From Candidatus Chloroploca mongolica (GTDB taxonomy: Bacteria > Chloroflexota > Chloroflexia > Chloroflexales > Chloroflexaceae), in NCBI RefSeq assembly GCF_004762035.2, contig NZ_SIJK02000001.1:136501-191334 (forward strand): 54,834 nucleotides of DNA. Direction: 5' to 3'. Shown here in pieces: positions 39,746 through 54,607 of the stretch (positions are counted from its first letter, which is position 1; each line of letters starts with the position of its first letter). The notes below the pieces were generated by a model, which saw only the letters and a program-made list of their open reading frames with translations, ran no database searches and was not told the DNA's origin. The position numbers and the translations under genes were made by a program.

Positions 39746-40423
39746 TCAGATAACCCCTCGTCGTTGCAGTGATCGTCGTGCTACGGTCAGTAACTCGCGC
39801 TGGTACGCGGCGATGCTCGCCGATAGGTTGCTGGTGTGGATGCGTTTGTGCAGCACAAGCTGTGGGACAAAGCTCAGCACAGCACCGGTGTCCTGGGCAC
39901 GGGCCAACCAGTCGCTGTCGCAGCCGATGCGTAACTGTTCGTCGAAGGGGCCAACTGTTTCGCAAAAGCTGCGGCGCACGAGCACGGCTCCTGGGGTGTA
40001 GCCAGGGACAGGTTGGTCGAGCCAGCCGTTGGCATAGGCGGCTGGCTCGGGTGTGCCTGGCTCGACAAAGCGTTGGACGTACCCGCTGACGTAGGGCGCG
40101 TCGGGATGCGCGTGCAGATAGGTGATCCGCATCGAGAGGCTGTCGGCAGGCCAGTGATCGTCGGCATCGAGGAAGGCGATTAGGTCGCCTCTGGCGGCAG
40201 CGAGGCCACTGTTGCGGGCAGCACCTAAGCCTGTGCCCGCCTGTTCGATCAGGCGCACCTGCGGGAAGGCGCTGGCAACTTCGCGACTTCCGTCGGTCGA
40301 AGCACCATCGACCACTAAGATCTCCAGGTGGGGGTATCCCTGCGCCATGATGCTCGCTAGTGCCTCTGGCAAGTACGGCATTGCGTTGCGCGTCGGGACG
40401 ATTACCGAGAGCAGGTTGTGCAT
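39746..40423 (-). CDS. Family 2 glycosyltransferase
   Basis: 225 aa. The ATG at 40423 shares a base with the GT4 stop (TGATG). It has LSVIVPTRNAMPYLPEALAS, ILVVDGASTDGSREV, GLGAARNSGLAAARGD and LIAFLDADDHW. VLHKRIHTSNLSASI near the end matches the GT2 genes at 6772 and 7524. Last gene of the PqqD-containing operon, so its product may act on the same substrate as the PqqD system or the glycan. Confidence 0.87.
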   Translation of the reverse strand: MHNLLSVIVPTRNAMPYLPEALASIMAQGYPHLEILVVDGASTDGSREVASAFPQVRLIEQAGTGLGAARNSGLAAARGDLIAFLDADDHWPADSLSMRITYLHAHPDAPYVSGYVQRFVEPGTPEPAAYANGWLDQPVPGYTPGAVLVRRSFCETVGPFDEQLRIGCDSDWLARAQDTGAVLSFVPQLVLHKRIHTSNLSASIAAYQRELLTVARRSLQRRGVI

Positions 40424-41823
40424 CAGGTTGCCTCCTCTTGAGGTTGCCCGTCAAACAGCGTTGGTCGAAGCACCCCGCCTGCCGCTGCGGCCTGAAATTC
40501 CATGGCGGCACGCGCTGGTTGCCCACGGTGCGCCAGCACAAGCCCCGCCCACAGGCGCAGGTAAGGGTCGTCAGGATAGGTGTTGCGGTAGTGGAAAATG
40601 CCGCCTTCGCCAGAGACGAGCAGATCAGCGGAAGCCGCGATTGCTGCTTCTGCGGTGTCACGCTGATCCCCAGGGGTGCCGCTGCGACTGATGGCAAAAG
40701 GGGTGGCATGCTTCCCCAGAGAAACAATAAATTGGGCAGCCGGATTAAATGTATATTCAGACGTATTTTCAGGCCATAGAGGGATGCGTTTGGGGTGTGC
40801 CATTTGCATCGCGAAGAGGTCGGCGAACTGTTGTGACAACCGCTCGGGGGCGAAGGTGCGGCGGGCATAGGCCTGTGCATTGCGCCCGAGTCGCTCGCGT
40901 TCGTCAGGGTGCTGATATAACCAGGTGATAGCGGCAGCGTAGTCGGCTTCGCGCTCGACGACAAGCCCGGTCACGCCATCTTCCACCAATGCGCGAACGC
41001 CAGGGTGGGCCAAAACGACGGGTGGCACACCGACCCACATGGCCTCTTGCAGCACCTTTTCACTGGTGGCATAGGTTGTGGGGTTGAGGGGATAGCCAAA
41101 GACATCACAGACTTCGAGCACAGTACGAATGTTTTCCACATACCCGTGAAACGTGAAGCGATCACCAAGCCCGTGGGCCTCGACTTGCTGGCGGATCTCT
41201 TCACCGCCCCCGCCGCAGATGATAAAGTGGGCCTCAGGCAGCTGCACGGCCGCACTCATCGCAACAAACGAGGGGTGCAGCTTCGTGGCATCAAGCGAAC
41301 CACCAATTGTGCCGATGTTAAAGCCCTCGTGAGGTCGGGGCGCGAAACCTGCCAGGCGGTCGAAGTCGGCCATCCCATATATGACAGGCATACCTCGCTT
41401 GGCAAACTCAGGCAGATCCAGCGTTGCGGAGGTGGTGGCGACGACCAGATCCGCCATATCCAACAAGGCCGCAGGCACGACCTGAGGCGGGTATGCACCA
41501 AGGATCTTGAGCCAGATGATTAACCGCAGCGGCGGCAAAGGGCCGCGCAAGAATTGCCAGAGCGCCGGGTTGTTCCAGAAATGGATCAGCACGATGTCGG
41601 CCTGGGTCAGCAATTCCGTGCGGAGCGTCGGATCTGGCCCTAGCAGCACCCGTACGCCGGCCTGCCGCGCCATAATGACCGCTACGGGCGAGCCAGACTT
41701 CTCCAGCGTGCAAACCAGATGCTCCTGCTCCAGACCAAGCTGCGCGGCATATTTTGCTGCCGCAATGAGCGATCGCTCTGGTCCGGCGCTGGAAAAGCGC
41801 TCGATGATGTGGACGATCTTCAT
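40423..41823 (-). CDS. GT4 family glycosyltransferase with C-terminal extension
   Basis: 466 aa. The start at 41823 overlaps the upstream stop (ATGA); the frame is open further, to 42015, but over repeat-like sequence. Motifs: MKIVHIIERFSSAGPERSLI, VLIHFWNNPALW, VVATTSATLDLP, NIGTIGGSLDATKLHPSF, IICGGGGEE, TFHGYVENIRTVL and EKVLQEAMWVGVPPVV, which carries the donor-binding Glu residues. About 100 extra C-terminal residues, ending LRLWAGLVLAHRGQPARAA, look TPR-like. A complete GT4, unlike the truncated one at 31499. Confidence 0.87.
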   Translation of the reverse strand: MKIVHIIERFSSAGPERSLIAAAKYAAQLGLEQEHLVCTLEKSGSPVAVIMARQAGVRVLLGPDPTLRTELLTQADIVLIHFWNNPALWQFLRGPLPPLRLIIWLKILGAYPPQVVPAALLDMADLVVATTSATLDLPEFAKRGMPVIYGMADFDRLAGFAPRPHEGFNIGTIGGSLDATKLHPSFVAMSAAVQLPEAHFIICGGGGEEIRQQVEAHGLGDRFTFHGYVENIRTVLEVCDVFGYPLNPTTYATSEKVLQEAMWVGVPPVVLAHPGVRALVEDGVTGLVVEREADYAAAITWLYQHPDERERLGRNAQAYARRTFAPERLSQQFADLFAMQMAHPKRIPLWPENTSEYTFNPAAQFIVSLGKHATPFAISRSGTPGDQRDTAEAAIAASADLLVSGEGGIFHYRNTYPDDPYLRLWAGLVLAHRGQPARAAMEFQAAAAGGVLRPTLFDGQPQEEAT

Positions 41824-42962
41824 GGGTGGGCCACCAAGGCAGCGAGATCGGCCTTGAGCCGGTGAAGCCGGGGATTGTCGGTCATAAACGGTGTAACATA
41901 GTCGAGGATCGCCAGGAGTTCGGTGGGACGTTGCAGTGGGGACAGGAGTGTGCGTGTGTAGGGAGGCATGCCTGGTATCATGAGATTTGGCGTCCGTTCG
42001 AGGGCGCGCTGCCAAAGACTGAGGGCGCGGATGTTGCGATAGGCGTTCAGCACTTCCATAAGAAAAAGACTGCGGTCGAATTGCTCGTCAACTTTGCTTT
42101 CGCCTGGGTTGGCCTCATACGCCGGCCTTTGCGGTGCGCAGCCGCGCTTTATATATTGACGTAGATCATCTTGGAATCTCGTGTGCGTGGCAGTCTCGCC
42201 GAAGCCTAGGTTCGTGATCAAATTGACGCTAGGGCTGATCCAAAGCCCGCCAATGTGGTTGCAGGTGACTGCCCAGTGAATGTCCCAGGGCATGGTATCC
42301 TGTGTAGCGCAAACTGCAAAGGTTCGAGTGCGATAGTCAATATGCTGGGGATCAGAGAGGCGCAAACTCAACCTGCTTGCCAAACTCATTGCGCGTATGG
42401 GATCACGCCAATGCTCAAATTGTTGCCAAGCTCGTCGCCATGTCGCCCAGCCCCAAGTGGCGGTCCAGCGATGCAGGAAATGGTCACTGTCCTCAGAGCG
42501 CCACTCACCCGCAGTGTTGAAACCACCGACACCCATCACCCGTTCATCATCCCGGTAGCGAGCCAATAAGGTCTGACAGAAGGGAAAGAACGAAGGATCG
42601 GGCAGGATATCATCTTCCAGAATAATCGCTTCTTCGACCTGAGTAAAAACCCATGTGATCCCGCTGGCAATCCGTGGGTCGCAGCCGAGATTGCGTTCGG
42701 CATACTCGCGCTCGACCTAACAGGGCCAATCCACCTGTTCAACGATGGCGCGGCATGCGGCACAAAGCGCCGCATCTTCCGGGTGATCGAGACGCGGGCC
42801 GTCGGCAATGATAAAGAGACGGCTCGGGCGCACCGCGCGGAGCACCTGCCACACCTGTTGCACAAGTTCGGGGCGATTAAAGATGATCAGAACAACAGGG
42901 GTCGTGAGTCCAACGCCCCCTTGTGCTTCCGGTTGCTCAAGCACGACGCGGCCAGCCTTCAT
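41820..42962 (-). pseudogene. HlpA-like glycosyltransferase interrupted by an in-frame TAG
   Basis: One frame of about 380 codons from ATG 42962. It has PVVLIIFNRPELVQQVWQVL and FIIADGPRLDHPEDAALC, then VDWPC, a TAG stop (42717-42719), and continues VEREYAERNLGCDPRIASG, EAIILEDDILPDPSFFPF and RYRDDERVMGVGGFN. The blocks belong to the HlpA/GT2-like family, in which the residue after the Pro-Cys segment is variable. CAG or GAG to TAG would explain the stop. The catalytic EDD lies after the stop. The gene overlaps the PqqD gene by 26 bp and the GT4 by 4 bp. Either a nonsense mutation or a sequencing error. Confidence 0.75.
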
Positions 42963-43365
42963 CGCTCACGTCGTGAATGGGATCCATCAGCAACAGGTCG
43001 TTCATATCGGTAAACTTTTCCAGCACCGGTGGTACATAGCCCTCGCCGTCAGCAAAAACAAGCGCAGCAACTGCGCCGGGAGCCTCCTCGGTCGGTACGA
43101 TCATCTCTTCGGTCAGGAGTTGCGCCACAAAGTCCTCGACGTGTGGGCGCAGCAAAGCCGCGTCGATGCCGAACGTGGCTGCTACCTGTGCGGCCAGATC
43201 TGCGATATGTGCGCCCTGATCCAGCATCTGCATGATCAGATAGCCGCTACCGGTGATACTGAAATAAATGCCAGTTTCGGTGTCAATCACCACCGTTTCT
43301 TTTTCAATAGTCTCATGGATCATGCGAGGCGCGTTAAATTTATAGACGACTTGGGTCATAGACAT
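42937..43365 (-). CDS. PqqD-like protein with conserved C-terminal tail
   Basis: 142 aa. GGAAAGGG lies about 5 nt before ATG 43365. Residues 1-90 have the PqqD winged-helix pattern: an N-terminal beta hairpin, ETVVIDTETGIYFSITGSG, MLDQGAHIADLAAQV and DFVAQLLTEEMI. PqqD domains bind peptide leaders in RiPP pathways and also occur as single proteins. After a variable linker (91-109), residues 110-139 form a tail (PPVLEKFTDMNDLLLMDP, then IHDV and GWP) nearly identical to that of 54161-54607. It is the first of three tightly overlapping genes with two sugar transferases. The tail, more conserved than the linker, points to a specific function. The substrate is unknown. Confidence 0.8.
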   Translation of the reverse strand: MSMTQVVYKFNAPRMIHETIEKETVVIDTETGIYFSITGSGYLIMQMLDQGAHIADLAAQVAATFGIDAALLRPHVEDFVAQLLTEEMIVPTEEAPGAVAALVFADGEGYVPPVLEKFTDMNDLLLMDPIHDVSDEGWPRRA

Positions 43366-43505
43366 CGATACCCTTTCCTGATGTTTTCATCCTCGGAATG
43401 TGACGGAATTGTATCACAAAGCTGATCGTCCGACCTGAGGCGCATCATGAGGCCCCGTCCCTGGCTGTACCGGCCAGAAGCGCAACACCAGTGCAGTGAG
43501 GCATT

Positions 43506-43625
43506 TCAGGTACGCCGTAAGATTTTTGCAGATTTGGTAGCCAGCCGTCTTGCAAGCTGCAACAAATTCCATCCGACGATAATAAGGCCTGCCAGAAACT
43601 TCTCACGAAGAGTGATGACCTTCAT
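43506..43625 (-). CDS. 39-aa basic hydrophobic peptide
   Basis: Start at ATG 43625 with GAGGA 8 nt upstream; the frame is open to 43721 without support. The peptide MKVITLREKFLAGLIIVGWN continues LLQLARRLATKSAKILRRT. It has one hydrophobic helix of about 18 residues followed by a strongly basic end. It could be a membrane-inserted peptide, or, from its place 140 bp upstream of a PqqD gene, a peptide substrate. It shows no Cys, Ser/Thr-rich core or Gly-Gly cleavage site, and nothing similar was recognised elsewhere in the window. Confidence 0.45.
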   Translation of the reverse strand: MKVITLREKFLAGLIIVGWNLLQLARRLATKSAKILRRT

Positions 43626-43760
43626 GTTCGGCTTCCTCGGTGTTGTGTTGGAACACCTCCGTTGGGGCCAGAAATCAGGCGATGCCAGGTCGCGTTCATA
43701 AACAAGATGTAGATGGGGCACACTGGCTGCAATTTCTCGGCAACGCTGTGCGCCCTGTTC

Positions 43761-45656
43761 TCAATTTCCCTCTATCCCGATAAAATCCGGCCAAAGGTTG
43801 AGATCGATCTCCGGGCAGAGCGCGACGACCCGTTGCACATCCGCTTTGAGATACGCAGCCAGCCGCGCCCGCTCATCGGCATCTGGTTTGGGAACGAGGT
43901 AGCTGCCCTGGTTGACAGGTTGGTGATACGTTTTGGGATGAAAGCGGTCATCTATATCCAGAAACCGGTAGGTGCAGGCCAACTCTGTTTCAGGCGATTG
44001 CACCATCTGCTCGAATTGCAGCACCAGCACCTGTTCGCGGTCGAAATACTCAAACAGCCTGGACAGCCCGAGGCCATAGAAACTATGGAGCATGGCTTCT
44101 GTATACAGCGAAAAAGTGTTGTAGCTATAGCGTTGCTGTGGACTCAATGTTCCAAACAACATTTTCCCCCGGTTGCTCATCAGGTGATTCCAGTGGGAGA
44201 TAAAGCGATCAATTGGATTACGTAGGACTACCAGGATCTTGGTCTCTGGTGCTGCGATAGCAAGATGTTCCAATAGGGTGGGATAGAGAAGATACAGAAC
44301 GGAGAACTCACCACAGATTGTGCCCGGTGGTGTAGAAAAAGCGCTGCGATAAAGGTTCAACGCCTCGGCACTCATGTTGTGATACTGAAAGTGTAAAAAG
44401 TAGTACGTCTCCTTGTTGTACCGGTTGTCCAGATGAACCCGATGGGGGACAACCTGGGGGTGTTCTGTTAAGAGCGAAAACCACCAAGTAGTGCCACTTT
44501 TAGGTGCGCCGATGCCCACAAAATCGGGAGGCCGCACCTTCCAGCCGTGCGCTGTCGCAGGGTAAAGATTCTGCGGGCCGAAGGAGTGCGCCAAAGTTTT
44601 ACATGGAGGTACTTCGTCCACTTTGCGGTTGGGATTCACGGAACGCGTCAGCTTCCTCCCCCTTTGTACAACTTTGGCGATGAGCCGATGTCGTTTTGCT
44701 GCAGCTTGGAGCCGTTTCTTGATTCGCTGCCGCACGTCTGCGTGCAGATGTCCTGAACGCACCCGCCGCAACCACCAGGCAAGGCTGCGAGTACCTTCCG
44801 CCCGTTCCATCAATTGCCGCATCTTTTGTTCAAAAGTGCTCTCAACTGCCCGCCCCTGCAGCCAATCCATATAGGCGTCGTACTGGTTGAACAGAATTTC
44901 TGCGGCTGCATCCCGCAACTGCCGATGCTGATCGCTTTGCGCCTGTCCCTTGGCGCTGTTGTGAAAGACGACGGTGCTCCGGCTAGCAGCCGCGTGATGA
45001 TAGATCAGGTTGCCATAGATGCCGCCCATCCAGTAGTGGAACGCTCGCTGATTGCTCCGTGTTACCTTATGGATAGGCAAGCCCTGGGCCTCGGCTACCC
45101 AGGTGAAATGGGACAGGGTGTCGGTACGTTCTAGGCTGTGGGTGTTATCGAAGTCAAGGCGGAGTTGGTAGCGCTCGATGAAATCCACGGTTGTACAGAG
45201 ACAACTGGGGTGAACATGGGGACGGATCGCCGGAACCATCTCGTCACGCCAGACCCCGGCCAGGGCTGATCCCGCCTCCAACGCGGCCAGTAAAATGGTC
45301 AGCCAACCGGAACATAGGGGGTGGGCATCGCTGTCCAGGGTAACGACATACATCGCCCCTTCTTCTCTGGCCAGGTGATAGAGCCGCTGTAGAGGCGTCC
45401 GGTGCAGGTGATGCAGCCGCTCATAAGCGGCGGCCGACAGCAAGGTCAAGCGGGGCTGCGCCAGGAGCCACACTTCCAATGTCGGCGCGCCAAGCCGGTT
45501 GTTCCAAAGATAAATATGATAATCCGGATAGTCGGTGTACCTGGCGATTCGATCCAGGCACAGACGTATCCAGCGGTCGTCCCTGGGTGTCTCGCCGCCA
45601 TTGACGATCAGGATGGCGACCCGGCCAACATGTGTTGTATCAGTTTCAGCATTCAT
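43761..45656 (-). CDS. Glycosyltransferase-sulfotransferase fusion protein
   Basis: 631 aa from ATG 45656 (AAAGG 8 nt upstream, ATGA overlap with the FkbM stop). Residues 10 to about 280 are a GT-A domain with VAILIVNGGETPRDDRW, LWNNRLGAPTLEVW and MYVVTLDSDAHPLCSGW (DxD at 108-110). About 280-375 is a basic helical linker. Residues 376-631 are a sulfotransferase with VGIGAPKSGTTWWFSLLTEHP (from 380) and LVVLRNPIDRFISHWNHL. Both halves look complete. One chain could place a sugar and sulfate the growing glycan. This pairing is unusual to me. The first 20 codons recur in the chimeric relic at 31284. Confidence 0.88.
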   Translation of the reverse strand: MNAETDTTHVGRVAILIVNGGETPRDDRWIRLCLDRIARYTDYPDYHIYLWNNRLGAPTLEVWLLAQPRLTLLSAAAYERLHHLHRTPLQRLYHLAREEGAMYVVTLDSDAHPLCSGWLTILLAALEAGSALAGVWRDEMVPAIRPHVHPSCLCTTVDFIERYQLRLDFDNTHSLERTDTLSHFTWVAEAQGLPIHKVTRSNQRAFHYWMGGIYGNLIYHHAAASRSTVVFHNSAKGQAQSDQHRQLRDAAAEILFNQYDAYMDWLQGRAVESTFEQKMRQLMERAEGTRSLAWWLRRVRSGHLHADVRQRIKKRLQAAAKRHRLIAKVVQRGRKLTRSVNPNRKVDEVPPCKTLAHSFGPQNLYPATAHGWKVRPPDFVGIGAPKSGTTWWFSLLTEHPQVVPHRVHLDNRYNKETYYFLHFQYHNMSAEALNLYRSAFSTPPGTICGEFSVLYLLYPTLLEHLAIAAPETKILVVLRNPIDRFISHWNHLMSNRGKMLFGTLSPQQRYSYNTFSLYTEAMLHSFYGLGLSRLFEYFDREQVLVLQFEQMVQSPETELACTYRFLDIDDRFHPKTYHQPVNQGSYLVPKPDADERARLAAYLKADVQRVVALCPEIDLNLWPDFIGIEGN

Positions 45657-46522
45657 CTCGAAAACCTTTGCGATCGCCAGGGTGCATTTTCTATCAAACC
45701 CGGGCGGGCTACAATAACGTGCTCTCCGGAATGACATTCACACTCAAAGCCGTGTGTCGCGGTGTAGAAATTCAAGGCGCAGCCCCGCACATAACGATCA
45801 TGTAATTCGATGATGATGACTCCGACGCGTTCAATCCACGCTGTCGGCGAGGCAAACACCTCCCTTTCTGCGCCTTCGATGTCCACTTTCAACAGATCCA
45901 CAACATCAAGGTTGTAATCGGCCAACAGTTGGGGCACGGTAACAGAATTCACCTGTCCAACAACCGGGAAACGGCCATCCGCTTCGAGAGGTTGAACGCA
46001 AAAAGCGCCATAGATCCCAGAACTTTTGGCCGGGTTAGCTAACGCCAGTATAATGGGTGTATCCCACAGCGCCGCCTGGAGAGGGATGATCTGGGGATAA
46101 GCGGCGACATTTTTGCGTAGCTGGCTGAAATTGGAGGCTTCTGGTTCCAGGGCCAAAATGCGCGCCGCCGGGTATCGATTGGCATAATAGATCGCCGTCA
46201 AGCCAATATTGGCGCCCGCATCAATGATCACCCCGGGTGGGCGGCTCAAAGGTAAAGTATACTCTTCCCGCGCGATAACCTGGCCGTAGATCCGAAAATC
46301 TGATGTCCCCAGGCGCAAGGTGAGGGGCGCACGAAGCTGACGGGGATGGACGGTCACCTCACCCCGAGGGTTCAACAGCGAAGCGACAAAAACACGCAGC
46401 CCTTCACGCCGGCCAAACCATCGCATGTATTGGCGCAGCAAAGAGATGAAATGGGCGGCGCGCTTGGAAGATCGTGCTGCCCGCGCCCGCAGCGCTACAA
46501 CAAGAGCATTGAAAACCATCAT
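45653..46522 (-). CDS. FkbM-family methyltransferase (distinct subgroup)
   Basis: 289 aa. ATG 46522 has GGGGA 8 nt upstream; ATG 46519 and a GTG at 46537 are alternatives. Motif I is GVIIDAGANIGLTAIYYA (97-114), then ILALEPEASNFSQL and DLLKVDIEGAEREVF. It is longer at the N-terminus than the two other FkbM proteins and not a close paralogue. The ATGA overlap with the fusion gene suggests that methylation, glycosylation and sulfation act on one product. Confidence 0.9.
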   Translation of the reverse strand: MMVFNALVVALRARAARSSKRAAHFISLLRQYMRWFGRREGLRVFVASLLNPRGEVTVHPRQLRAPLTLRLGTSDFRIYGQVIAREEYTLPLSRPPGVIIDAGANIGLTAIYYANRYPAARILALEPEASNFSQLRKNVAAYPQIIPLQAALWDTPIILALANPAKSSGIYGAFCVQPLEADGRFPVVGQVNSVTVPQLLADYNLDVVDLLKVDIEGAEREVFASPTAWIERVGVIIIELHDRYVRGCALNFYTATHGFECECHSGEHVIVARPGLIENAPWRSQRFSR

Positions 46523-46529
46523 ATTTACA

Positions 46530-46865
46530 TTCCCCACACCATGATCGCCAACCCATCCTACTGCTCCGCCCGCGTCCGTCCCGTGCGCCAGTCGAAGACC
46601 ACCAGGTGCGCCGCTCTGCGGTGCAGCGGTCGGCGTATTCCCACGTCTGCGCCAAACCCTTCATCAGGGTGGCGTCCAGCGACTTGTGCAATACTTCGCC
46701 CCCAAACGGCCAGAGCACGAGCAAGTCCGTCCGCCGTCGGCCCAGGCCATCCTCCCGTTCGACCCGTCTCCTGGTGTTGATGCTGTCGGTCAAGAAGTCA
46801 ACTCCTGCAGCAGGATCTCGCGGTAGATCGGGTTGGCTCCCTGACAAAGCAATGTGGCATCTCAC
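46530..46865 (-). pseudogene. 3' relic of an AAA-ATPase/PD-(D/E)XK gene
   Basis: In one frame: VEREDGLGRRRTDLLVLWPF, HKSLDATLMKGLAQTWEYAD; in another, AHLVVFDWRTGRTRAEQ then stop. This is the nuclease end of the AAA-ATPase family also seen at 38084 and 48019 (REYAIGSGRMDLCL, GLAQLDTYLNG, GWLVIFDRR) but of a different subgroup. The ELK strand is deleted or garbled and the frame is broken. It sits in the gap between the epimerase and the FkbM gene. Confidence 0.65.
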
Positions 46866-47842
46866 CCTTGCTCATACCACCTGACCGTCTCCGCCAGCCC
46901 CTCGGCAAAGCTGGTCTGCGCCCGGAAGCCAAATAGCCGCTCGGCCCGCGAGGTCTCTAGGCAGCGGCGGGGTTGCCCATTGGGGCGCGCGGTGTCCCAG
47001 ACGATGCGGCCTTCGTAGCCCGTCAGGCGGGCCAGGAGGGTGGCGAGTTCGCGGATCGCAATTTCTTGCCCGCTCCCCAGATTGACCGGTTCCGCTTCGT
47101 TGTAGTGCTCAGCCGCCAGCAGGATGCCCTCGGCGGCGTCGGCCACATAGAGAAATTCGCGGGTTGCGCTGCCGTCGCCCCACAGCGTGACCTCGGGCTG
47201 CCCCGTTGTACGCGCCTCGACAAAACGTCGGATCAGCGCCGGGATGACGTGCGAAGAGGTCGGGTCAACGTTGTCGCCAGGGCCGTAGAGGTTGACGGGC
47301 AGCAGGTAGATCGCATTGAGGCCGTACTGTTGTCGGTAGGCTTGCGCCTGCACCAGCAGCATCTTTTTGGCAAGCCCATACGGGGCGTTGCTCTCTTCGG
47401 GATACCCGTTCCACAAATCCTCTTCCCGAAAGGGCACCGGCGTCACCTTTGGATACGCGCAGACCGTGCCGACAATGACACATTTGTCGATCGCCCATTG
47501 CCGCGCCGCCTCGATCAACTGCGTGCCCATGATCAGGTTGTCGTAGAGCAGTTCACCTGGCCGTTCGAGGTTGTAGCCGATGCCGCCAACATTGCCTGCC
47601 AGATGGATGAGCAGCACCTGGGATGGATCCGCCGCCTGTGTCGCGCAGGTCTCAGCCAGCAGCGCCTGGATCGCCTCCCAGCGGCGCAGATCATACTGAG
47701 CGCGCCGCGGAACAACGATCTGCGCCTCGGCCACCCCGCGCCCTCGCAGCGCTGCCACCACCGCACACCCCAGAAACCCCGCGCCCCCGGTGACAATCAC
47801 CGTCTTGCCGTGCCAAAAATCAGCCGCCGGTTGCGTTGTCAT
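46862..47842 (-). CDS. NAD-dependent epimerase, GDP-L-fucose synthase-like
   Basis: 326 aa. ATG 47842 has GGAGGAG just upstream (GGAGG 4 nt away). [11 protein letters not shown] (15-25) is the nucleotide-binding loop, [20 protein letters not shown] (125-144) the substrate loop, and YGLAKK with Tyr155/Lys159 the SDR catalytic pair. [26 protein letters not shown] and NLGSGQEI complete a Fcl/WcaG-type pattern: epimerase-reductase making GDP-L-fucose from GDP-4-keto-6-deoxymannose. No Gmd is in the window. It could equally act on another NDP-sugar. It is the first gene of the PqqD/GT operon, and GDP-fucose would suit the HxRRGD proteins. Its 5' end is duplicated at 49704. Confidence 0.8.
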
Positions 47843-47874
47843 AGCTCCTCCGCGCCGCTGTGTTACACATAAGA

Positions 47875-47990
47875 TTGACGCAAAGGCGCAAAGGCGCAAA
47901 GCTGCGCATGCTTCATTCAACCCTCTGCGCCTCTGCGCCTTTGCGCCTCTGCGTTAAAACCCTCTGCGCCTTTGCGCCTTTGCGTCAAAA
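47875..47990. repeat. CGCAAAG inverted-repeat element
   Basis: It begins TTGACGCAAAGGCGCAAAGG, has a unique middle containing ATGCTTCATTCAACC, and ends with two rounds of CTCTGCGCCTTTGCGCC and a GCGTCAAAA. It lies between the epimerase start and AAA copy B. With the preceding epimerase 5' end it forms a direct repeat of 49704-49911, which has the same ATGCTTCATTCAACC middle. Confidence 0.82.
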
Positions 47991-48018
47991 AAACCGGCCT
48001 CATTCAGCGGCACAAGCC

Positions 48019-49566
48019 TCACGCCCGTATCACGGTCACTGTCCGCCCGGCGGGACTGACCGCCATGGTGTGGTGGGTACGCTCGCTGATCCGCGGCTGG
48101 TCGCGACGCCGGTCGAAGATGACGAGCCAGCCCGTTGCGAGCCCGAGACCGTTCAGATAGGTGTCTAGTTGGGCCAAGCCTTGCTCCAGCGGATCGCGCT
48201 CGCCGTCGCGCCAGACTTTCAGTTCGAGGCCCAGCGTGACATCCCCATAGCGCAGGCAGAGATCCATGCGTCCGCTGCCGATGGCGTATTCGCGCTCGAG
48301 GGTGCCGCCGCCGTTGACGACCCGGTGCAGGAAGGCCATCAACACCAGGTGCGGGGCGATCTCGTGATAATGCGCGCTACCCAGCAGCGGCTGCCCATGC
48401 TGGCGCCAGAAGGCGAGAAATGCTTCCAGCAGTTTGTCCGGGTCAAGACCGCCGTCGGGCCGCAGCCAGGTGGGACGGATGTGCGGCAGGGAGTCTTGGG
48501 GGCCGCTGGCTAAGACACGTGGGATTACCTCACGGTAGATCGGGTTGGCGATGACCAACCCGCCGGCCGGATCGCGACGCACCAACCCCAGGTCAAGGAC
48601 AAACTGCCGGTCGTCTGCGGGCACGTCAGCCAATGCACGCCCGGCCAGTAGCGGTTCGATGACGTGACGCACGCGTGGCTCGCGCAGCCGCTCGGCCAGG
48701 CTGTCGAGGTGCGTGTCCTGGCGCTGGATCAGCAACTCCTTGGCCTGATTGATCTCCGCCACATCCACCGGTTGGGCCAGGTCAGGGACGACCACCTGCA
48801 CCGCCTGGCGCACTAGGGCGTTCACCAACCATGGCTGCCCCTGGGTCAGGTCGAAGGCCAGCCGCAGCGCCTCCGGTGTGAAAACCTGGCCGGTGTCGGC
48901 GGTGTACTGAGCGTAGAGTTCCGCCACCTCTGGCGCGGTGAAGTTGCGCAGGGTTAGCGACTCGACTTTGACGTTGAAGGGACTGGCGGTGTGCAGTCGC
49001 TCACTGCCACCGGATGCGACCTTGTAATCACGCACGTCGCGTAGACCGATCAGGGCCAATGCCCAGGGGAAGGCCTCAGGCCGCCGCTGAAAGCCAGCCC
49101 GCAGTTGGCGCAACGCTGAAATTAGCGCCGCATCCTGGAGGGCATCAATCTCGTCAACAAACAATACGACGGGCCGGGAGGACGCCATGCACCAGGCGGT
49201 GAGCGCCGCACCGAGCCGCCCACCGGCCTCTGCGTCAGGCCAGGGTGGTGGCTGCAACTCTGTCGGCAACTGCCAGACCAGCGCGGCCCGCCAATCTTCG
49301 AGGATCGCCAACTCAGCCGCGCCGGGGTCATCGTTGAACGCTGCCCCTACCTCCATCGAGACCAGTGCGGCTACATAACGACCGGACGCCGTCACCTGAC
49401 GGGCCAGTTCAAGCATCGCCGTCGTCTTACCGCTCTGGCGCGGGCCATGCACGACAAAGTAGGCCTTCTGGTCAAGCAACGTCTGCACATCGGGCAGCCG
49501 TGCGGTCGCCGGCAACATGTAGTGATCTTCAGGATTGCAGGGCCCGGCAGTATTAAAAAAGCGCAT
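48019..49566 (-). CDS. AAA-ATPase with C-terminal PD-(D/E)XK nuclease-like domain, copy B
   Basis: 515 aa, the twin of 38084-39631. Walker A GPRQSGKTT (41-49), Walker B VVLFVDEID and the D435/E448-x-K450 nuclease residues are all kept. Residues 1-202 and 382-515 are identical to copy A, while about two dozen substitutions cluster in between (for example AHT/YT, VMAIK/VAEIN, AFPSQ/ASGPQ). This mosaic is best explained by gene conversion of the ends or selection on the middle. Sequence identity continues about 10 bp past both ends. Copy B is bracketed by repeated epimerase 5' ends and CGCAAAG elements, suggesting it was inserted there. Confidence 0.87.
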   Translation of the reverse strand: MRFFNTAGPCNPEDHYMLPATARLPDVQTLLDQKAYFVVHGPRQSGKTTAMLELARQVTASGRYVAALVSMEVGAAFNDDPGAAELAILEDWRAALVWQLPTELQPPPWPDAEAGGRLGAALTAWCMASSRPVVLFVDEIDALQDAALISALRQLRAGFQRRPEAFPWALALIGLRDVRDYKVASGGSERLHTASPFNVKVESLTLRNFTAPEVAELYAQYTADTGQVFTPEALRLAFDLTQGQPWLVNALVRQAVQVVVPDLAQPVDVAEINQAKELLIQRQDTHLDSLAERLREPRVRHVIEPLLAGRALADVPADDRQFVLDLGLVRRDPAGGLVIANPIYREVIPRVLASGPQDSLPHIRPTWLRPDGGLDPDKLLEAFLAFWRQHGQPLLGSAHYHEIAPHLVLMAFLHRVVNGGGTLEREYAIGSGRMDLCLRYGDVTLGLELKVWRDGERDPLEQGLAQLDTYLNGLGLATGWLVIFDRRRDQPRISERTHHTMAVSPAGRTVTVIRA

Positions 49567-49620
49567 GGCAGGTTTCCTTGGTGCTAGCCTCTATCCCTTG
49601 CCAAAAAAGATTGCCTCGTG

Positions 49621-49697
49621 TTGACGCAACGGCGCAAAGACGCAAAGCTGCGTATGGAGATGGATCAAACTGTAGCGCCTTTGCGCCGTTGCGTCAA
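49621..49697. repeat. Short CGCAAAG element with perfect 19-bp inverted ends
   Basis: Arms 49621-49639 (TTGACGCAACGGCGCAAAG) and 49679-49697 are exact inverted repeats around 39 bp of unique sequence. It looks like a minimal MITE-like form of the element. It stands between AAA copy B and the duplicated epimerase 5' end. Confidence 0.85.
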
Positions 49698-49703
49698 ACA
49701 ACC

Positions 49704-49794
49704 CGTCTTGCTGTGCCAAAAATCAGCCGCCGGTTGCGTCGTCATGAGCTCCTCCGCGCCGCTGTGTTACAAACAATACCTTGCACATAAGGTT
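49704..49794 (-). pseudogene. Duplicated 5' end of the epimerase gene
   Basis: It matches 47801-47875 almost base for base: the ribosome site GGAGGAGC, ATG and the codons for [14 protein letters not shown]. Reading then runs into the CGCAAAG element, so only about 14 codons remain. It has a small insertion (AACAATACCTTGC) in the leader. With the element next to it, it forms one flank of the segment that contains AAA copy B. Confidence 0.8.
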
Positions 49795-49911
49795 GACGCG
49801 GATTGACGCAAAGACGCAAAGGCGCAAAGTTCCATATGCTTCATTCAACCCTCTGCGCCTTTGCGCCTTTGCGTCAAAAATCCTCTGCGCCTTTGCGCCT
49901 TTGCGTCAAAA
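49793..49911. repeat. CGCAAAG inverted-repeat element overlapping the ABC gene end
   Basis: It starts TTGACGCGGATTGACGCAAAG and closes with two CTCTGCGCCTTTGCGCC blocks and GCGTCAAAA. The last bases supply the TGA stop codon of the ABC transporter gene at 49906-49908. It shares its middle with 47875-47990. Confidence 0.82.
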
Positions 49912-51777
49912 CCCCTCCGCCGACACCTCCCGCATCTGCATGTTCCACGAGCTCGCATAATGCCCCCCCAGCGCCACAAGCTCGCTGTGGGTTCCCGATT
50001 CGATCACCCGCCCGCCAACCATCACATGGATGATGTCGGCTTGCATCGCGGTGGTAAAACGATGCGTGATGATCAATGCGGTACGTCCGGCAATCAAATC
50101 GCGGAACCGCGTCATCCACGCATGCTCGGCCCAGCTATCCATTGCGCTCGTTGGCTCATCAAGGATCACCAGGTCGGCCTGGCGCACAAAGGCCCGCGCC
50201 AACGCAAGGCGCTGCCATTCGCCGATGCTCAATTCGGTGTACCCAAACCAGCGCCCCAGGATCGTTGCGTACCCCTCGGGTAGCTTGTCAATGATCTCGG
50301 CGGCCCCGCCAGCGTGCGCTGCCGCCTCGATCGCCGCCTGCGTGGGCTCGCTCCCCATGTCACCAAAACGGATATTGTCGCCCGCGCTGTCGTGGTACGG
50401 GAACGGCTGTTGAAAAAGCACGCTGATCCGTCGGCGTAGCTCGTCCTGGGCGAGTTCGCGTAGGTTAACGCCATCCCAGGTAATCCGGCCCTCCTGCGGA
50501 TCATAGAAACGGCAGAGCAATTTGATCAAGGTGCTCTTGCCCGCCCCGTTCTCCCCCACAATCGCCACAATCTGACCCGCCGGGATCGTCAGATTGAACT
50601 TCTCCAGCGCGTTCCGCTCGCTATCCTCATAGCGAAAGGTCACCTCTTCCATCCGAATGCCTTCACCTAAACCCGGGGCCAGCGTCGTTGGTACCGCCGG
50701 ATCGACGATCTGGGGCTCGAGTTCGAGAAAGGTGAAGAGATCCTCCAGGAAGAGCAGGTTGCGATAGATGTCGCCGACCCCGGTGAGCAAGCTGCGCATC
50801 AGACGGAGACCCTGGTTCATGGCTTGCCAGAACATCGCTAGGTCGCCCAGGTTAAAGCGCCCGCGCATCGTCTGCAAGCCCATCCAGCCGAGCCCTCCTG
50901 CCAGGGCTACTAGCCCAACCAGTGCCGCTCCGATCTGGGCCAGCATCTGTTGACGCGCAAGCCCGAGCCGCTCTGCGTGCAATTGGCGACTCAGTTGATC
51001 GTACGACTGCTTGAAATAATCGCCCAGGCCAAAGATGCGCAACTCCATCGCCGCATTCACCAGCGTCACTACTCGCTGGAAATAGACCAGCCGGCGTTGA
51101 TGCATCGTATTCTTTTGTCGCCAGCGATGAAAGATCCAGGTCGACCGCAACGCCACCCAGAGCGCCGGCAATGTACCGGCCAGCAGAACGAGCGGCATCC
51201 ACCATGCAAAGATGAAGAGCACGCCGCCCATCGCAACCAGGGTGATCGTGTGCTGCAACAGGCCATTCAGGTTCTCCAGCAGGGCCAGCGGACGATCAAT
51301 CGCATCCACGCTTGCCCGTTGCAACTGGTCATAGTAGGTCGGCGACTCGTAGAAATGGAGATCGAGGGTGATCGCTTTGCTGTGGATCAGGTTATTCATA
51401 TAATCGCGGGTACGCTGGGCCAGCAGCATGCGCACATACTCCTGCACACTGCCCAGCAATTCCCCGGTCACCAGCACCAACCCCATCAGCACAAAGATTG
51501 GCACCACCGCCTGGATCGCCTCAGACGTGCCGCCACGCTCTACGACTGCGACCAGCCCATTGACGAGTTCACGCGTCAGATAGACCGTCACCACCGGCAG
51601 CACGCCCTGGATCACCAGCAACACCGTCGAAGCGAGGGTCCAACCCCGCGCCGCTTGCCAGACGAGGCGCAACGCTTGGGGCACATAGCGCAACTGCCGC
51701 AGTTGACTGCGCACGCTAAGCAACCGCTTCAGACGCTGATCCTGTACAGGCGGGCCACGGTGTCGGTGCATACTCAT
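49906..51777 (-). CDS. ABC transporter, fused membrane and ATPase domains
   Basis: 623 aa half-transporter of the exporter type. About 45-330 has five or six membrane spans (LASTVLLVIQGVLPVVTVYL, IFVLMGLVLVTGELLG, VAMGGVLFIFAWWMPLVLLA, ALVGLVALAGGLGWMG). The ATPase has Walker A VGENGAGKST (407-416), signature LSIGEWQRLALARA (516-529), Walker B LVILDEPTSAMD (536-547) and switch His in IITHRF. The signature departs from LSGGQ in a way common to peptide/lasso-type exporters. A C39 domain is absent. It follows the HprK-like gene by 3 bp, so it probably exports the product of that set. It likely works as a homodimer. Confidence 0.9.
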   Translation of the reverse strand: MSMHRHRGPPVQDQRLKRLLSVRSQLRQLRYVPQALRLVWQAARGWTLASTVLLVIQGVLPVVTVYLTRELVNGLVAVVERGGTSEAIQAVVPIFVLMGLVLVTGELLGSVQEYVRMLLAQRTRDYMNNLIHSKAITLDLHFYESPTYYDQLQRASVDAIDRPLALLENLNGLLQHTITLVAMGGVLFIFAWWMPLVLLAGTLPALWVALRSTWIFHRWRQKNTMHQRRLVYFQRVVTLVNAAMELRIFGLGDYFKQSYDQLSRQLHAERLGLARQQMLAQIGAALVGLVALAGGLGWMGLQTMRGRFNLGDLAMFWQAMNQGLRLMRSLLTGVGDIYRNLLFLEDLFTFLELEPQIVDPAVPTTLAPGLGEGIRMEEVTFRYEDSERNALEKFNLTIPAGQIVAIVGENGAGKSTLIKLLCRFYDPQEGRITWDGVNLRELAQDELRRRISVLFQQPFPYHDSAGDNIRFGDMGSEPTQAAIEAAAHAGGAAEIIDKLPEGYATILGRWFGYTELSIGEWQRLALARAFVRQADLVILDEPTSAMDSWAEHAWMTRFRDLIAGRTALIITHRFTTAMQADIIHVMVGGRVIESGTHSELVALGGHYASSWNMQMREVSAEGF

Positions 51778-51780
51778 CGT

Positions 51781-52863
51781 TTACCTATTGGCTCTATCTA
51801 TCAAGGCATCTTGATGTTCCGCCAGCAACGCCGCAATCGCCGCGACATTCTTCCCTGGGTCGCTCGCCAGTTCCAGGTGATAACAGGGCAAACGTCGGGT
51901 TAGTTCGGCACTCAGCCGATAGCTCTCTGCTTCAGCCCCGGGCAACCAGATCACCGTGCTGGGGCCTAGCTGACGAAAGAGCTCGCCTGGGGCCGCCGGC
52001 CGAAGCCTGGCCTCGGCGCGGTGCGTCACCTCGGGCAAGAGCAATGCCTTGATCGGGAATGAGGCCACCATCTGCGCAGCGTAGGTCGGATACAAAAAGG
52101 CGAGCCCTTTGCTCGCCTTGTAGACATCGTCCCACCTGTCAAGCAGCGGGCGCAGGTAGCTCAGCCGGTCGAGCATATCAACTTTGAGCTTGGCCGAATT
52201 GAAGAGCATTGCCGCCCGCGGCTCAGGTTCCACCCGCACCAGGCATTTATCATCGCTCAACAGGCGCAACGCTGGATAGGCCAGACAGCTCAGGGCCGTC
52301 GAGGACTTGCCCGCCCCCGAGTTGCCAATCAGCAAGACGCCACCCTCATCAGTGCCAAGCGCCGCTGCATGGATGACCTGCCAGCCCGTTTCGGCCAGTG
52401 CCCAGTGGAACAGGGTCTGGAGTGGCGCAGCGCGTTCGTAAATCGAAAGCTGCGCAGCCTCATCAACCCACCAGAAACCCTGGCGCGTGCTGCGATCATA
52501 CGCAAAGAGTTGCCCTGACGTCGGCGCATGCATCAATGCAAGCGTCCCGGCATACAGCACCGCACGTTGCCCATAACGCCGATAATCCGTGGGAGCAAAG
52601 GGAGGCGCTGGCGGGCGCACCCCCGTGGTTGCCCCGTCCCACAGATGAAAGCTCATCGCTTCACCTTCAGCCGGTGCGCCAGGCTCCCCCAGCAAATGGG
52701 CCAGCGCTGGCAGCACAACCCCCTCGAGTGCTGCGCCAGCCATGCGCAGTTCAAAGGCAACCCCTTGTACCTGCACCGAGCGCACCTGCCCATCCACAGA
52801 TGCCCACGCCTTCGCAAACGCCGCTTCCAGTTGGATCAAATAATCGCCAGCCATTGCGCTCAT
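51781..52863 (-). CDS. HPr kinase-related protein
   Basis: 360 aa; ATG 52863 or 52854. The P-loop VLLIGNSGAGKSSTALSCL (176-194) and the acidic strand LRLLSDDKCLVR (199-210) match HprK-like kinases. WQVIHAAALG (161-170) supplies the conserved His before the P-loop. The N-terminal 150 residues are unrelated to the regulatory domain of true HprK. Related kinases occur with PqqD and nucleotidyltransferase proteins: in some lasso-peptide clusters they phosphorylate the peptide, and in exopolysaccharide regions they form the so-called HPr-rel-A set. No HPr or PTS gene is nearby, so a carbon-control role is unlikely. The substrate is not known. Confidence 0.82.
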   Translation of the reverse strand: MSAMAGDYLIQLEAAFAKAWASVDGQVRSVQVQGVAFELRMAGAALEGVVLPALAHLLGEPGAPAEGEAMSFHLWDGATTGVRPPAPPFAPTDYRRYGQRAVLYAGTLALMHAPTSGQLFAYDRSTRQGFWWVDEAAQLSIYERAAPLQTLFHWALAETGWQVIHAAALGTDEGGVLLIGNSGAGKSSTALSCLAYPALRLLSDDKCLVRVEPEPRAAMLFNSAKLKVDMLDRLSYLRPLLDRWDDVYKASKGLAFLYPTYAAQMVASFPIKALLLPEVTHRAEARLRPAAPGELFRQLGPSTVIWLPGAEAESYRLSAELTRRLPCYHLELASDPGKNVAAIAALLAEHQDALIDRANR

Positions 52864-52865
52864 CT

Positions 52866-52998
52866 GCCTACACTTTCCCCGTGCCCGTCTTCTTTCGCGG
52901 CGGGGTGCGGGGGAACCGGGTTCCCCCGTATTGCTACCCGTTCCCTCGCGGCGGGGTGCGGGGGAACCCGGTTCCCCCGCTTACCTACACTTTCCCCT
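52866..52998. repeat. Paired GC-rich hairpin repeats between kinase and nucleotidyltransferase genes
   Basis: Two direct copies of GCGGCGGGGTGCGGGGGAAC each form a strong hairpin (52908-52928 and 52958-52980; CGGGGGAA paired to TTCCCCCG). They are bracketed by two copies of CCTACACTTTCCCC (about 52867-52880 and 52983-52997). The right-hand copy encodes the last codons of the nucleotidyltransferase gene. The rest of the 121-bp gap holds no gene. Confidence 0.82.
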
Positions 52999-54142
52999 GC
53001 AACACCCCAAGCGTATGCTGCAACCGCGTCCGCAGATCACTCGACCCATAACGCCTGCTGAGCCAGCCAGTCTCAGGCCAGAGTGCCCCACGCAACAGGC
53101 GGAGGGTGTCACCTGGGCGGTCGATCAACGCCAGTTGAAAAAGCAGCCGCTGCGGCGAGGCCGAGAGATCGTAGCCTTCCAGGATGCGCTGCGCGTCGGT
53201 AAAATGGGTAATCAGCCGTTGGTGCCGTACCGAAAGCGGGAGCAAGGCCAGCCCGGGCAAGATCTCGGGAACATGGTAGATCTCCGCGACGAGCATACAG
53301 ACAAGGCCAACCGTTGTTGCCAAACCCCACGCTCGTGTACGCTGCGCAAGCACGTCCCAATCGATCCCCTGCCGCGCCAGCAAGGCCACATCAAGCAGCG
53401 AGCGCAGCGCATTGCCCGAGAGTTGATGATTGATCACGGCATGCACCGCAAGCTGGATCAGCGCATCTTCGTTGGCAAGCCGATAGACCGGGTGCCCCAC
53501 CAGGGTGATCGGCTCAATCCGCTCGCGCACACTCGCCCGATCGACCGACGAGGCCCAGCGCAACCACTCGCCCGCAAAGACGCCCCAGTGCAACTCGATC
53601 AGCCCGTGTCCTGGCGCATCGCTATAAAACTGGATCTCGCCATCGCGCTCGCGTTGCAACGCCAACGGACGCCGCGACTTCGAGCGCTGCTGATAGCCCA
53701 GCCCCTCCATTGCTTGCCACGCAAGGGGGACCTCATCGTCAGTGATCCAGAGATCAATATCCCCCATCGGGCGACAACTGGGCTCGGGGTAGAGCGTATG
53801 CGCCACCAGAGCCCCTTTGTAGACGACCGGTTGCACCCCGACCGCGCCGAGGGCACGCAACACCCGATGCAACTCAGCCTGATGGATAAGACCCCGCACC
53901 GCAGCCATACGCTGGATCCGGCTCACCTCTGCCCGCACATGCGCGGGCACAACATCCGCCAGGGGAGACTGCTTGAGCCGCCAGACCAGCATGCCAACCA
54001 GATTATGCCGCGCCGCCGCCGCGATCAATGCCGACCAGGCCACGGGCGTCATTGTTTCCAGCGATGCCAAAACGTGGCGATCATCCTCTTGCGGAACCAA
54101 CCAGGCGGGCCAGGTCGCACGCGGATTCAAGGTAGGTTGCAC
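52985..54142 (-). CDS. PF14907-type nucleotidyltransferase family protein
   Basis: 385 aa from GTG 54142 with GAGGA 9 nt upstream. VQPVVYKGALVAHTLYPEP (103-121) and CRPMGDIDLWITDDE (123-137) give the Lys-Gly pair and the metal-binding Asp128/Asp130 of a pol-beta-like fold. GLIELHWGVFAGEW adds the third acidic strand. The C-terminal 150 residues are helical. Family members accompany RiPP and exopolysaccharide genes; in at least one lasso pathway such an enzyme modifies the peptide. All catalytic residues are here, in contrast to the relative at 5645. The gene lies 18 bp after the PqqD gene. Confidence 0.85.
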   Translation of the reverse strand: MQPTLNPRATWPAWLVPQEDDRHVLASLETMTPVAWSALIAAAARHNLVGMLVWRLKQSPLADVVPAHVRAEVSRIQRMAAVRGLIHQAELHRVLRALGAVGVQPVVYKGALVAHTLYPEPSCRPMGDIDLWITDDEVPLAWQAMEGLGYQQRSKSRRPLALQRERDGEIQFYSDAPGHGLIELHWGVFAGEWLRWASSVDRASVRERIEPITLVGHPVYRLANEDALIQLAVHAVINHQLSGNALRSLLDVALLARQGIDWDVLAQRTRAWGLATTVGLVCMLVAEIYHVPEILPGLALLPLSVRHQRLITHFTDAQRILEGYDLSASPQRLLFQLALIDRPGDTLRLLRGALWPETGWLSRRYGSSDLRTRLQHTLGVLQGKV

Positions 54143-54160
54143 GATAGGGTTTCCTCACCG

Positions 54161-54607
54161 TCAATGACGCTTTGGCGCAGGTTGTGGCCAACCAGTTTCC
54201 GCATCAACTTCATGGATCGGGTCAAGCAAGAGCAGATCGGCCATATCGGTATACTTCTCAAGCAGAGGAGGAGTGAAGGTTTCATCAGGTGGGAGATCAA
54301 TCGATAAAGGGGGCATAGCCTCAGGCGGGTTCGCGGCGGGAACAACCAGTTGCTCAGCAAGCAATTGATCAATGAAGGCATCTACCTCATGTGCAACCGC
54401 CGCTACCGGCACCGCGTAGACCTCACCGAGCAGGGTGGCAATTGCCTGCGCATCCTTGCCGTGAAGCAGGGCCGCCCAGATCACCCCGGCAGTGGCGCGC
54501 ATACTATAGTACGCACCACTTTCGAGATTGACCACAATCGCCTCGCCATCAACGATCTCACTAATCACTGCTGGCTGATTAAGACGTAAATGCATATGCT
54601 TTTCCAT
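54161..54607 (-). CDS. PqqD-like protein with conserved C-terminal tail
   Basis: 148 aa from ATG 54607 with AGGAG 7 nt upstream; the open frame further upstream is repeat-derived. PqqD-like core: AVISEIVDGEAIVVNLESG, YYSMRATAGVIWAALLHG, AQAIATLLGEVY and VDAFIDQLLAEQLVV. A Pro-rich linker follows (92-110), then the tail FTPPLLEKYTDMADLLLLDP (111-130), IHEV, GWP and a basic end. The tail matches residues 110-139 of the other PqqD protein except for conservative changes. It reads like the Y-x-P-P-x-L leader of lasso precursors followed by an acidic amphipathic segment, but a separate peptide is not visible. It leads the set nucleotidyltransferase, kinase, exporter. Confidence 0.85.
   Translation of the reverse strand: MEKHMHLRLNQPAVISEIVDGEAIVVNLESGAYYSMRATAGVIWAALLHGKDAQAIATLLGEVYAVPVAAVAHEVDAFIDQLLAEQLVVPAANPPEAMPPLSIDLPPDETFTPPLLEKYTDMADLLLLDPIHEVDAETGWPQPAPKRH

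Follow-up and report, generated by a model that had tools for sequence, protein, structure and literature searches.

The window analysed here, a stretch of 54,834 nucleotides from Candidatus Chloroploca mongolica, carries on its minus strand two genes for small PqqD-type proteins, i.e. proteins of the RRE kind (recognition elements of RiPPs, the ribosomally synthesized and post-translationally modified peptides), which both terminate in the same leader-like tail. P0003 (148 residues, positions 54161 to 54607) and P0002 (142 residues, positions 42937 to 43365) match the PqqD family PF05402 over their cores with 48 and 49.5 bits, respectively (cut-off 23.4), in agreement with the original prediction, which had been made from the letters alone. 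The model of PQQ-biosynthesis PqqD proteins, TIGR03859, gave P0002 only 17.3 bits for a cut-off of 46 and listed no match for P0003. The cores and linkers of the two proteins differ as predicted (24/91 and 4/17 identical residues). For the tail the motif had been written correctly; the statement that the two copies match almost exactly was too strong for an identity of 68% (21/31). When one tail was shuffled 100,000 times, the highest count was 10 identities and 21 was never reached. P0002 and P0003 are the only tail copies in the window's own genome (E <= 1).

When the aromatic residue that opens the F/Y-x-x-P-x-L motif is counted as position 1, positions 1-9 of the tail are leader-like, with the consensus F/Y-x-x-P-x-L-E-K-Y/F, positions 10-18 read [T/S/N]DMxDLLLL, and the sequence continues from position 19 onward as DP[I/V]H[E/D]V..GW(P). 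From the alignment and the models described below, a leader-like segment spans F111-L128 in P0003 (54224 to 54277) and Y110-M127 in P0002 (42985 to 43038). It is followed by a conserved segment of low model confidence, predicted to be disordered, at D129-P141 in P0003 (DPIHEVDAETGWP, 54185 to 54223) and D128-P139 in P0002 (DPIHDVSDEGWP, 42949 to 42984), all coordinates being computed from the residue numbers. The columns D11, L15, D19, P20, H22 and the final G, W and P are invariant in an alignment of 35 proteins, which were gathered by means of the tail itself so that their conservation is partly due to selection. Beyond these rows D11 is not fully invariant (E in locus L066) and forms from small genomes lack the P of GWP. 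Position 1 is Phe in 36 of 62 rows, as against Tyr or Trp in leaders acting in trans; these rows were picked by DP[I/V]H or DPP[M/L]P and thus give no proof that those residues are invariant. A second tail class (L046, L105, L116) keeps the leader-like segment and goes on with LALDPPMPD...PW or a close variant, DPPMP or DPPLP replacing DPIHEV..GWP; in L115 it ends early. Position 10, mostly T, N or S, was considered as a phosphorylation site and dropped, being E or M in some relatives; it lies just before a predicted helix and so fits a helix cap. Five tails searched alone against NCBIfam matched no model, and a tail profile run against the PDB retrieved one chain only, at chance level (E 1.9).

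P0003 and P0002 were modelled with AlphaFold from 34-row alignments; the cores are confident, and residues 111-120 reach a mean pLDDT of 93 and 90, respectively. In both models a strand is predicted early in the tail, at positions 7-9 in P0003 (residues 117-119) and 5-9 in P0002 (residues 114-118), and is followed by a short helix (residues 122-127 and 121-125). DSSP calls a strand only if it is hydrogen-bonded to another strand. The tail strand must therefore pair with the core in the models, and its partner would be the edge strand of the RRE groove. From residue 121 on, the pLDDT blocks of both models fall to 49-63, and most invariant tail columns lie in this part. The original prediction would have lost its case for a special role had the tail been predicted to be buried in the core with no partner link; the second half of the tail is predicted to be disordered rather than packed. 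The P0003 model found the lasso B1-leader complex 5v1v as its top Foldseek match (E 1.8e-5). In a further structure comparison (VIA) the best solved matches were TbiB1 and another lasso B1 protein (Z 12.6 and 12.5), both crystallised with leader peptides, and 6jx3 followed with Z 11.2. The models of both window proteins fold as lasso-type RREs (winged helix), the structure comparison being that of the P0003 model. The likeness to lasso leaders proposed from the letters is consistent with these models and with the spacing of the F/Y-x-x-P-x-L start, which is that of leaders of lasso peptides and of linear polyphosphorylated peptides (LPPs); the tail keeps the spacing of the lasso pattern [Y/W]xxPx[L/V/I/F/A] and often has Phe as its first residue.

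Only some PqqD proteins have the tail. The PqqD model was run on 339 genomes of the cyanobacterial phylum; of its 102 matches, spread over 68 genomes, 24 have the tail. Among 30 PqqD loci that were fetched, 26 lack it and stop 2-8 residues past the core. The tail profile matched 28 of the same 339 genomes, of which 25 are real, since the weak matches in G543, G564 and G580 were dropped as not PqqD; in four of the 28 the PqqD model found nothing. Sixteen of the 25 are small genomes (1.6-2.5 Mb), presumably of gut Vampirovibrionia-like organisms, and most of these have a diverged tail such as LKEYNDAQELLLADPIHEVKEETGW. The original prediction was to fall if the tail were an ordinary part of most PqqD proteins. 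A related alternative is a structural extension of the PqqD fold that plays no special role. It could account for the part of the tail that forms a strand paired with the core in the models. We regard it as very improbable, in view of the 24 tails among 102 PqqD matches, the 26 loci that stop close after the core, the conservation running on into the loose part of the models and the linkage to a kinase described below.

A scan of a species-genome collection with the tail pattern gave 66 matches, of which 32 were confirmed as loci by tblastn. All 32 tails terminate a PqqD-type protein and none stands alone. They come from Cyanobacteria, Chloroflexota, Thermoleophilia, Acidimicrobiia, anammox planctomycetes, Verrucomicrobia, a gammaproteobacterium, Lachnospiraceae, Clostridia and one other bacterium. 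Among 158 genomes of the window's class there were 5 matches, and the three convincing ones are the window's own genome and two others of its genus; in its phylum the tail profile matched 6 of 400, three from the window's genus and one (G349) with the second tail class. A 20-position leader profile matched 4 of 239 genomes in the phylum of the gammaproteobacterial locus (the centre, a new type-1 protein, L152, and two weak matches outside PqqD frames), 1 of 159 in that of the Acidimicrobiia locus (the centre) and 2 of 171 in that of L021 (the centre and one weak match). The full tail profile matched 1 of 150 genomes in the family of the Lachnospiraceae genome (the centre). In the groups sampled the tail is rare outside cyanobacteria and Chloroflexota. 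Viral contigs scanned with P0003 and with the tail held no relatives; plasmid searches returned one tail-bearing record, from Crinalium.

P0003 lies in a group of minus-strand genes. Directly downstream lies a PF14907 nucleotidyltransferase (385 residues, 52985 to 54142, E 7e-52), followed by an HprK-like kinase (360 residues, 51781 to 52863) and an MsbA-like ABC exporter (623 residues, 49906 to 51777; Pfam and NCBIfam). The window kinase alone scores below the cut-off of the Pfam model Hpr_kinase_C (22.1 versus 33.3 bits). A profile of 13 kinase relatives matched the HPr kinase 1ko7 with E 1.2e-5 over the HprK-type P-loop region (positions 157-219 of 362), and among the 13 rows G-x-GKS is invariant and DD nearly so. 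Pfam further assigned, on the same strand, an NAD-dependent sugar epimerase/dehydratase (46862 to 47815), an FkbM methyltransferase (45653 to 46537), a sulfotransferase-domain protein of 658 residues (43761 to 45737), a GT4-type glycosyltransferase (40423 to 41838) and a GT2 glycosyltransferase (39746 to 40423) of the type that recurs beside the kinase in the loci of relatives. P0002 has no kinase of its own within the window. The stretch from 49906 to 54607 thus groups a discrete RRE, an HprK-like kinase, an NTP transferase and an MsbA-like exporter, which is the gene set of the LPPs published in May 2026; those also have an SpI peptidase and a separate precursor, and often lie by polysaccharide genes, according to the part of the article available (PMC13381572). 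The set is common in relatives, not complete.

Two observations concern the surroundings of P0002. A glycosyltransferase-like gene just downstream (41820 to 42962, minus strand) is broken by an in-frame TAG near 42717-42719; its likeness was judged by eye and neither piece has a Pfam match. Related open reading frames (ORFs) occur in L032, L036 and L107, the copy of L036 being open over 380 residues. Two nearly identical ORFs of 515 residues (38084 to 39631 and 48019 to 49566, minus strand) flank P0002 and its neighbours; the one at 48019-49566 has AAA-ATPase matches, and a relative stands beside the tail gene in L018.

The partners recur beyond the window. Five neighbour-family models, built from tail loci L008-L040 and the window, were scanned over 54 loci with 55 tail genes, one of them (L116) placed by hand. 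On contigs that are often shorter than 9 kb and that include near relatives (Chloroploca, Oscillatoria), GT2 was found within 9 kb of 45 of the 55 tail genes, the kinase of 40, the nucleotidyltransferase of 38, ABC of 24 and GT4 of 16. The next downstream gene was the kinase in 18 cases, the nucleotidyltransferase in 11, ABC and GT2 in 8 each and another gene in 10. Within 1.5 kb, tail genes (n=55) and tail-less PqqD loci (n=26) differed for the kinase (32 versus 3), the nucleotidyltransferase (25 versus 2), GT2 (27 versus 0) and ABC (8 versus 1), the control being drawn from the best-scoring matches of one phylum and the neighbour models being partly trained on the tail group. No kinase lies within 9 kb of the other 15 tail genes; for 14 of these the genome was searched (13 genomes, that of L028 being left out). 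Twelve of the 13 encode the kinase elsewhere (E <= 1.9e-36), usually next to a GT2; the kinase of G198 adjoins a second tail gene, that of L018's genome is apparently on the same contig just past the flank, and L022's genome gave a weak match only (4.6e-11). Among tail-less relatives of the same families, none of 13 had a kinase at E <= 1.9e-36 and one gave a partial match (8.8e-6). The link between tail and kinase is statistical.

In L103 (7174 to 9156, minus strand) one frame of 661 residues joins, according to our models, a PqqD core, the tail, a second partial PqqD-like match and an HprK-like kinase. In three small-genome loci (L100 6398 to 7939, L101 6293 to 7897, L102 6430 to 7944, plus strand) the gene immediately upstream of that for a PqqD-tail protein joins an HprK-like kinase to a PqqD domain that lacks the tail. 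The earlier suggestion that the kinase, the nucleotidyltransferase and the glycosyltransferases are partners of the tail proteins is therefore supported by neighbourhood, by the L103 fusion and by genome co-occurrence. The commonest families in 107 scanned neighbour ORFs (of 377 called; the scan matched 105 Pfam and 595 NCBIfam families) were epimerases, glycosyltransferase 8, permeases, methyltransferases, dTDP-sugar enzymes and sulfotransferases. In Chloroflexota the tail genes of L017, L026, L030 and L038 adjoin a different set, i.e. a BPD-type permease, an NMT1-like binding protein and an AMP-ligase type protein, which in L018 has carrier and acyltransferase domains.

The exporter is the sole one of the five partner models within 9 kb in L014, L017, L018, L030, L033 and L038, as would be expected if the tail were an export or localisation signal for the MsbA-like transporter that brings the RRE or a cargo to the membrane. 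We give this little credence, as ABC lies within 9 kb of only 24 of the 55 tail genes and all six genomes of the ABC-only loci encode the kinase elsewhere.

Separate substrates and processing enzymes of the lasso kind were searched for at the same loci. The 783 small ORFs that lie near tail genes include no homologous set from more than three loci, those being of one genus; 39 of the 783 match [YWF]xxPx[LVIFA], and these do not recur as a family. Two cyclase-type queries found no macrolactam cyclase by tblastn at E <= 1e-3 in the 54 tail loci, whose contigs are partial, and one query found no B2 leader protease there, which a diverged B2 could escape; the lasso locus L149, used as control, was found in both searches. 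The missing precursor also bears on an autoinhibitory role, in which the tail would fill the RRE groove as a pseudo-leader and be displaced by the true precursor, gating the pathway. The confident strand early in the tail suits such a role, as does the prevalence of Phe at position 1, which could mean a weaker, displaceable binding. This would leave the strong conservation past the strand unexplained, and the precursor it calls for was not found among the small ORFs. We consider it improbable.

The explanation we tentatively favour, with a confidence that stops somewhat short of an even chance, is a pathway of the LPP kind with RRE, leader and acceptor joined in a single polypeptide. Each protein would be an RRE carrying a lasso-type leader and a short acceptor segment at its C-terminus. 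The leader part F/Y-x-x-P-x-L-E-K-Y/F would add a beta strand to the RRE in the manner of lasso and LPP leaders, which bind in trans, and the short helix [T/S/N]DMxDLLL would hold out the conserved DP[I/V]H[E/D]V..GW and present it to the HprK-like kinase, the PF14907 nucleotidyltransferase and the GT2/GT4 enzymes. These may phosphorylate and glycosylate the segment, or build a glycan on it, and the MsbA-like exporter would act last. The RRE fold, the tail strand and the disorder of the tail end are predictions of the models; the occupancy of the groove, the modification and its site, and any cleavage or export are what we infer from them and from the neighbourhood.

Several findings weigh against this fused-precursor account. 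Its main difficulty is that no conserved hydroxyl acceptor is present: the conserved segment has no invariant Ser, Thr, Tyr or Cys, and the HprK-like RiPP kinases described in the available parts of the published accounts act on Ser (PMC9266682, PMC13381572). Many small-genome relatives, taken in part from rows that had been picked for DP, lack the YxxP proline and yet keep DP[I/V]H and GW. In the 661-residue fusion of L103 the tail is internal, so that it need not be a released peptide; moreover, Pfam sees there PqqD only and no kinase, the kinase call resting on our own model, and the kinase model was derived from the tail loci themselves. The 107 neighbour ORFs scanned out of 377 show no leader peptidase, SpI (SipW-like) included, in their 25 most frequent Pfam or NCBIfam families, and single cases are possible. 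A pure docking motif is nearly as likely, and a conserved flexible segment fits it nearly as well. The leader half would then pack on the RRE for stability and DPIHEV..GWP would bind the kinase, nucleotidyltransferase, glycosyltransferase or exporter, PqqD serving as a scaffold for a substrate encoded elsewhere. We hold this quite possible: the segment is strongly conserved despite its low confidence in the models, it has no invariant hydroxyl residue, it stands inside a kinase fusion, and the kinase co-occurs strongly with it. Nevertheless, no separate precursor recurs near tail genes, and the tail-less PqqD-kinase fusions beside tail proteins show that the tail is not needed for joining RRE and kinase.

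If the fused-precursor account is true, an RRE and its substrate need not be separate genes, and precursor searches based on small ORFs close to an RRE would overlook the system in cyanobacteria, Chloroflexota and other phyla. The tail would serve as a sequence marker for a phosphate/sugar peptide pathway beyond Bacilli, LppN-type nucleotidyltransferases included, and, as it is paired with one kinase family, a single protein and a single kinase would suffice for a direct test of the substrate question.

Substrates encoded in cis are known from borosins, in which the precursor is fused to its modifying enzyme. PMC12710340 names a borosin binding domain. The tail proteins are alike in this respect and differ in that the tail is fused to a recognition domain, not to a catalyst. 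The HPr-rel-A system resembles them by its PqqD protein and HprK-related kinase; the matches to TIGR04352 and TIGR04353 are weak and do not reach the cut-offs (35.8 versus 200 and 23.9/16.4 versus 35 bits). The NCBIfam models of lasso PqqD chaperones are the top NCBIfam matches of both window proteins, below cut-off (36.8 versus 70 and 42.5 versus 80 bits). Neither the tail nor a natural RRE-leader fusion was found in searches of the open literature of PubMed Central (PMC), as covered by titles and the starts of abstracts with subscription journals outside the scope, and the string DPIHEV was not found there; the available portions of PMC12710340 and PMC7470986 contain no such tail or fusion either.

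Paeninodin-type phosphorylated lasso peptides and pseudomycoidin (PadeK, PsmK, PsmN) share with the tail loci, in the accessible part of their description, an RRE with a YxxP/WxxP leader, an HprK-like kinase and a hexose-linked nucleotidyltransferase, PsmN being tied to a hexose on phospho-Ser (PMC9266682). The control precursor of the paeninodin family, L148 (MKKEWKKPELEVLDV...), has the same W-x-x-P-x-L-E start. The tail system differs from them in that cyclase and B2 matches are absent from all 54 loci, the precursor is not separate and there is no conserved C-terminal Ser acceptor.

The closest likeness is to the LPP RiPPs of Bacillota (LppA/B/K/N/D/S), as far as the available text of PMC13381572 describes them. 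The gene set, the lack of a cyclase in this set, the polysaccharide-type surroundings and the YxxPx[V/L] motif are common to both. In LPPs the separate LppA carries YxxPxVLxHQxIxFETxxS and its core Ser3 gains several phosphates; lppN deletion was without effect (PMC13381572). In the published PbaB1-PbaA complex the lasso leader PbaA pairs through positions 7-9 by our count (PMC13381572), which is the register of the strand predicted in the tail of P0003. Since the Tyr of LppA is at -16, Ser3 corresponds to position 19 of the tail, where Asp is found in 35 of 35 rows, a set gathered with the tail itself, and is followed by Pro. The registers coincide, which is no proof. A bolder reading is a self-presenting RRE with recognition domain, leader and acceptor in one chain, a reusable protein-bound acceptor shared by several phyla, on which the kinase, nucleotidyltransferase and glycosyltransferases would assemble a phospho-glycan. 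The Asp would then act as acceptor in an unusual way, by an acyl-phosphate or a glycosyl bond, or be a built-in mimic of phosphoserine, and the DPPMPD...PW class would be another acceptor on the same leader; we judge this rather unlikely. Overall, the tail system stands apart from LPPs by the strong conservation of its terminal segment, in contrast with the LPP C-termini, described as highly variable (PMC13381572), by its occurrence in other phyla, by the lack of a recurring separate precursor with YxxPxVLxHQ near the tail genes, and by a leader and putative acceptor fused to the RRE itself.

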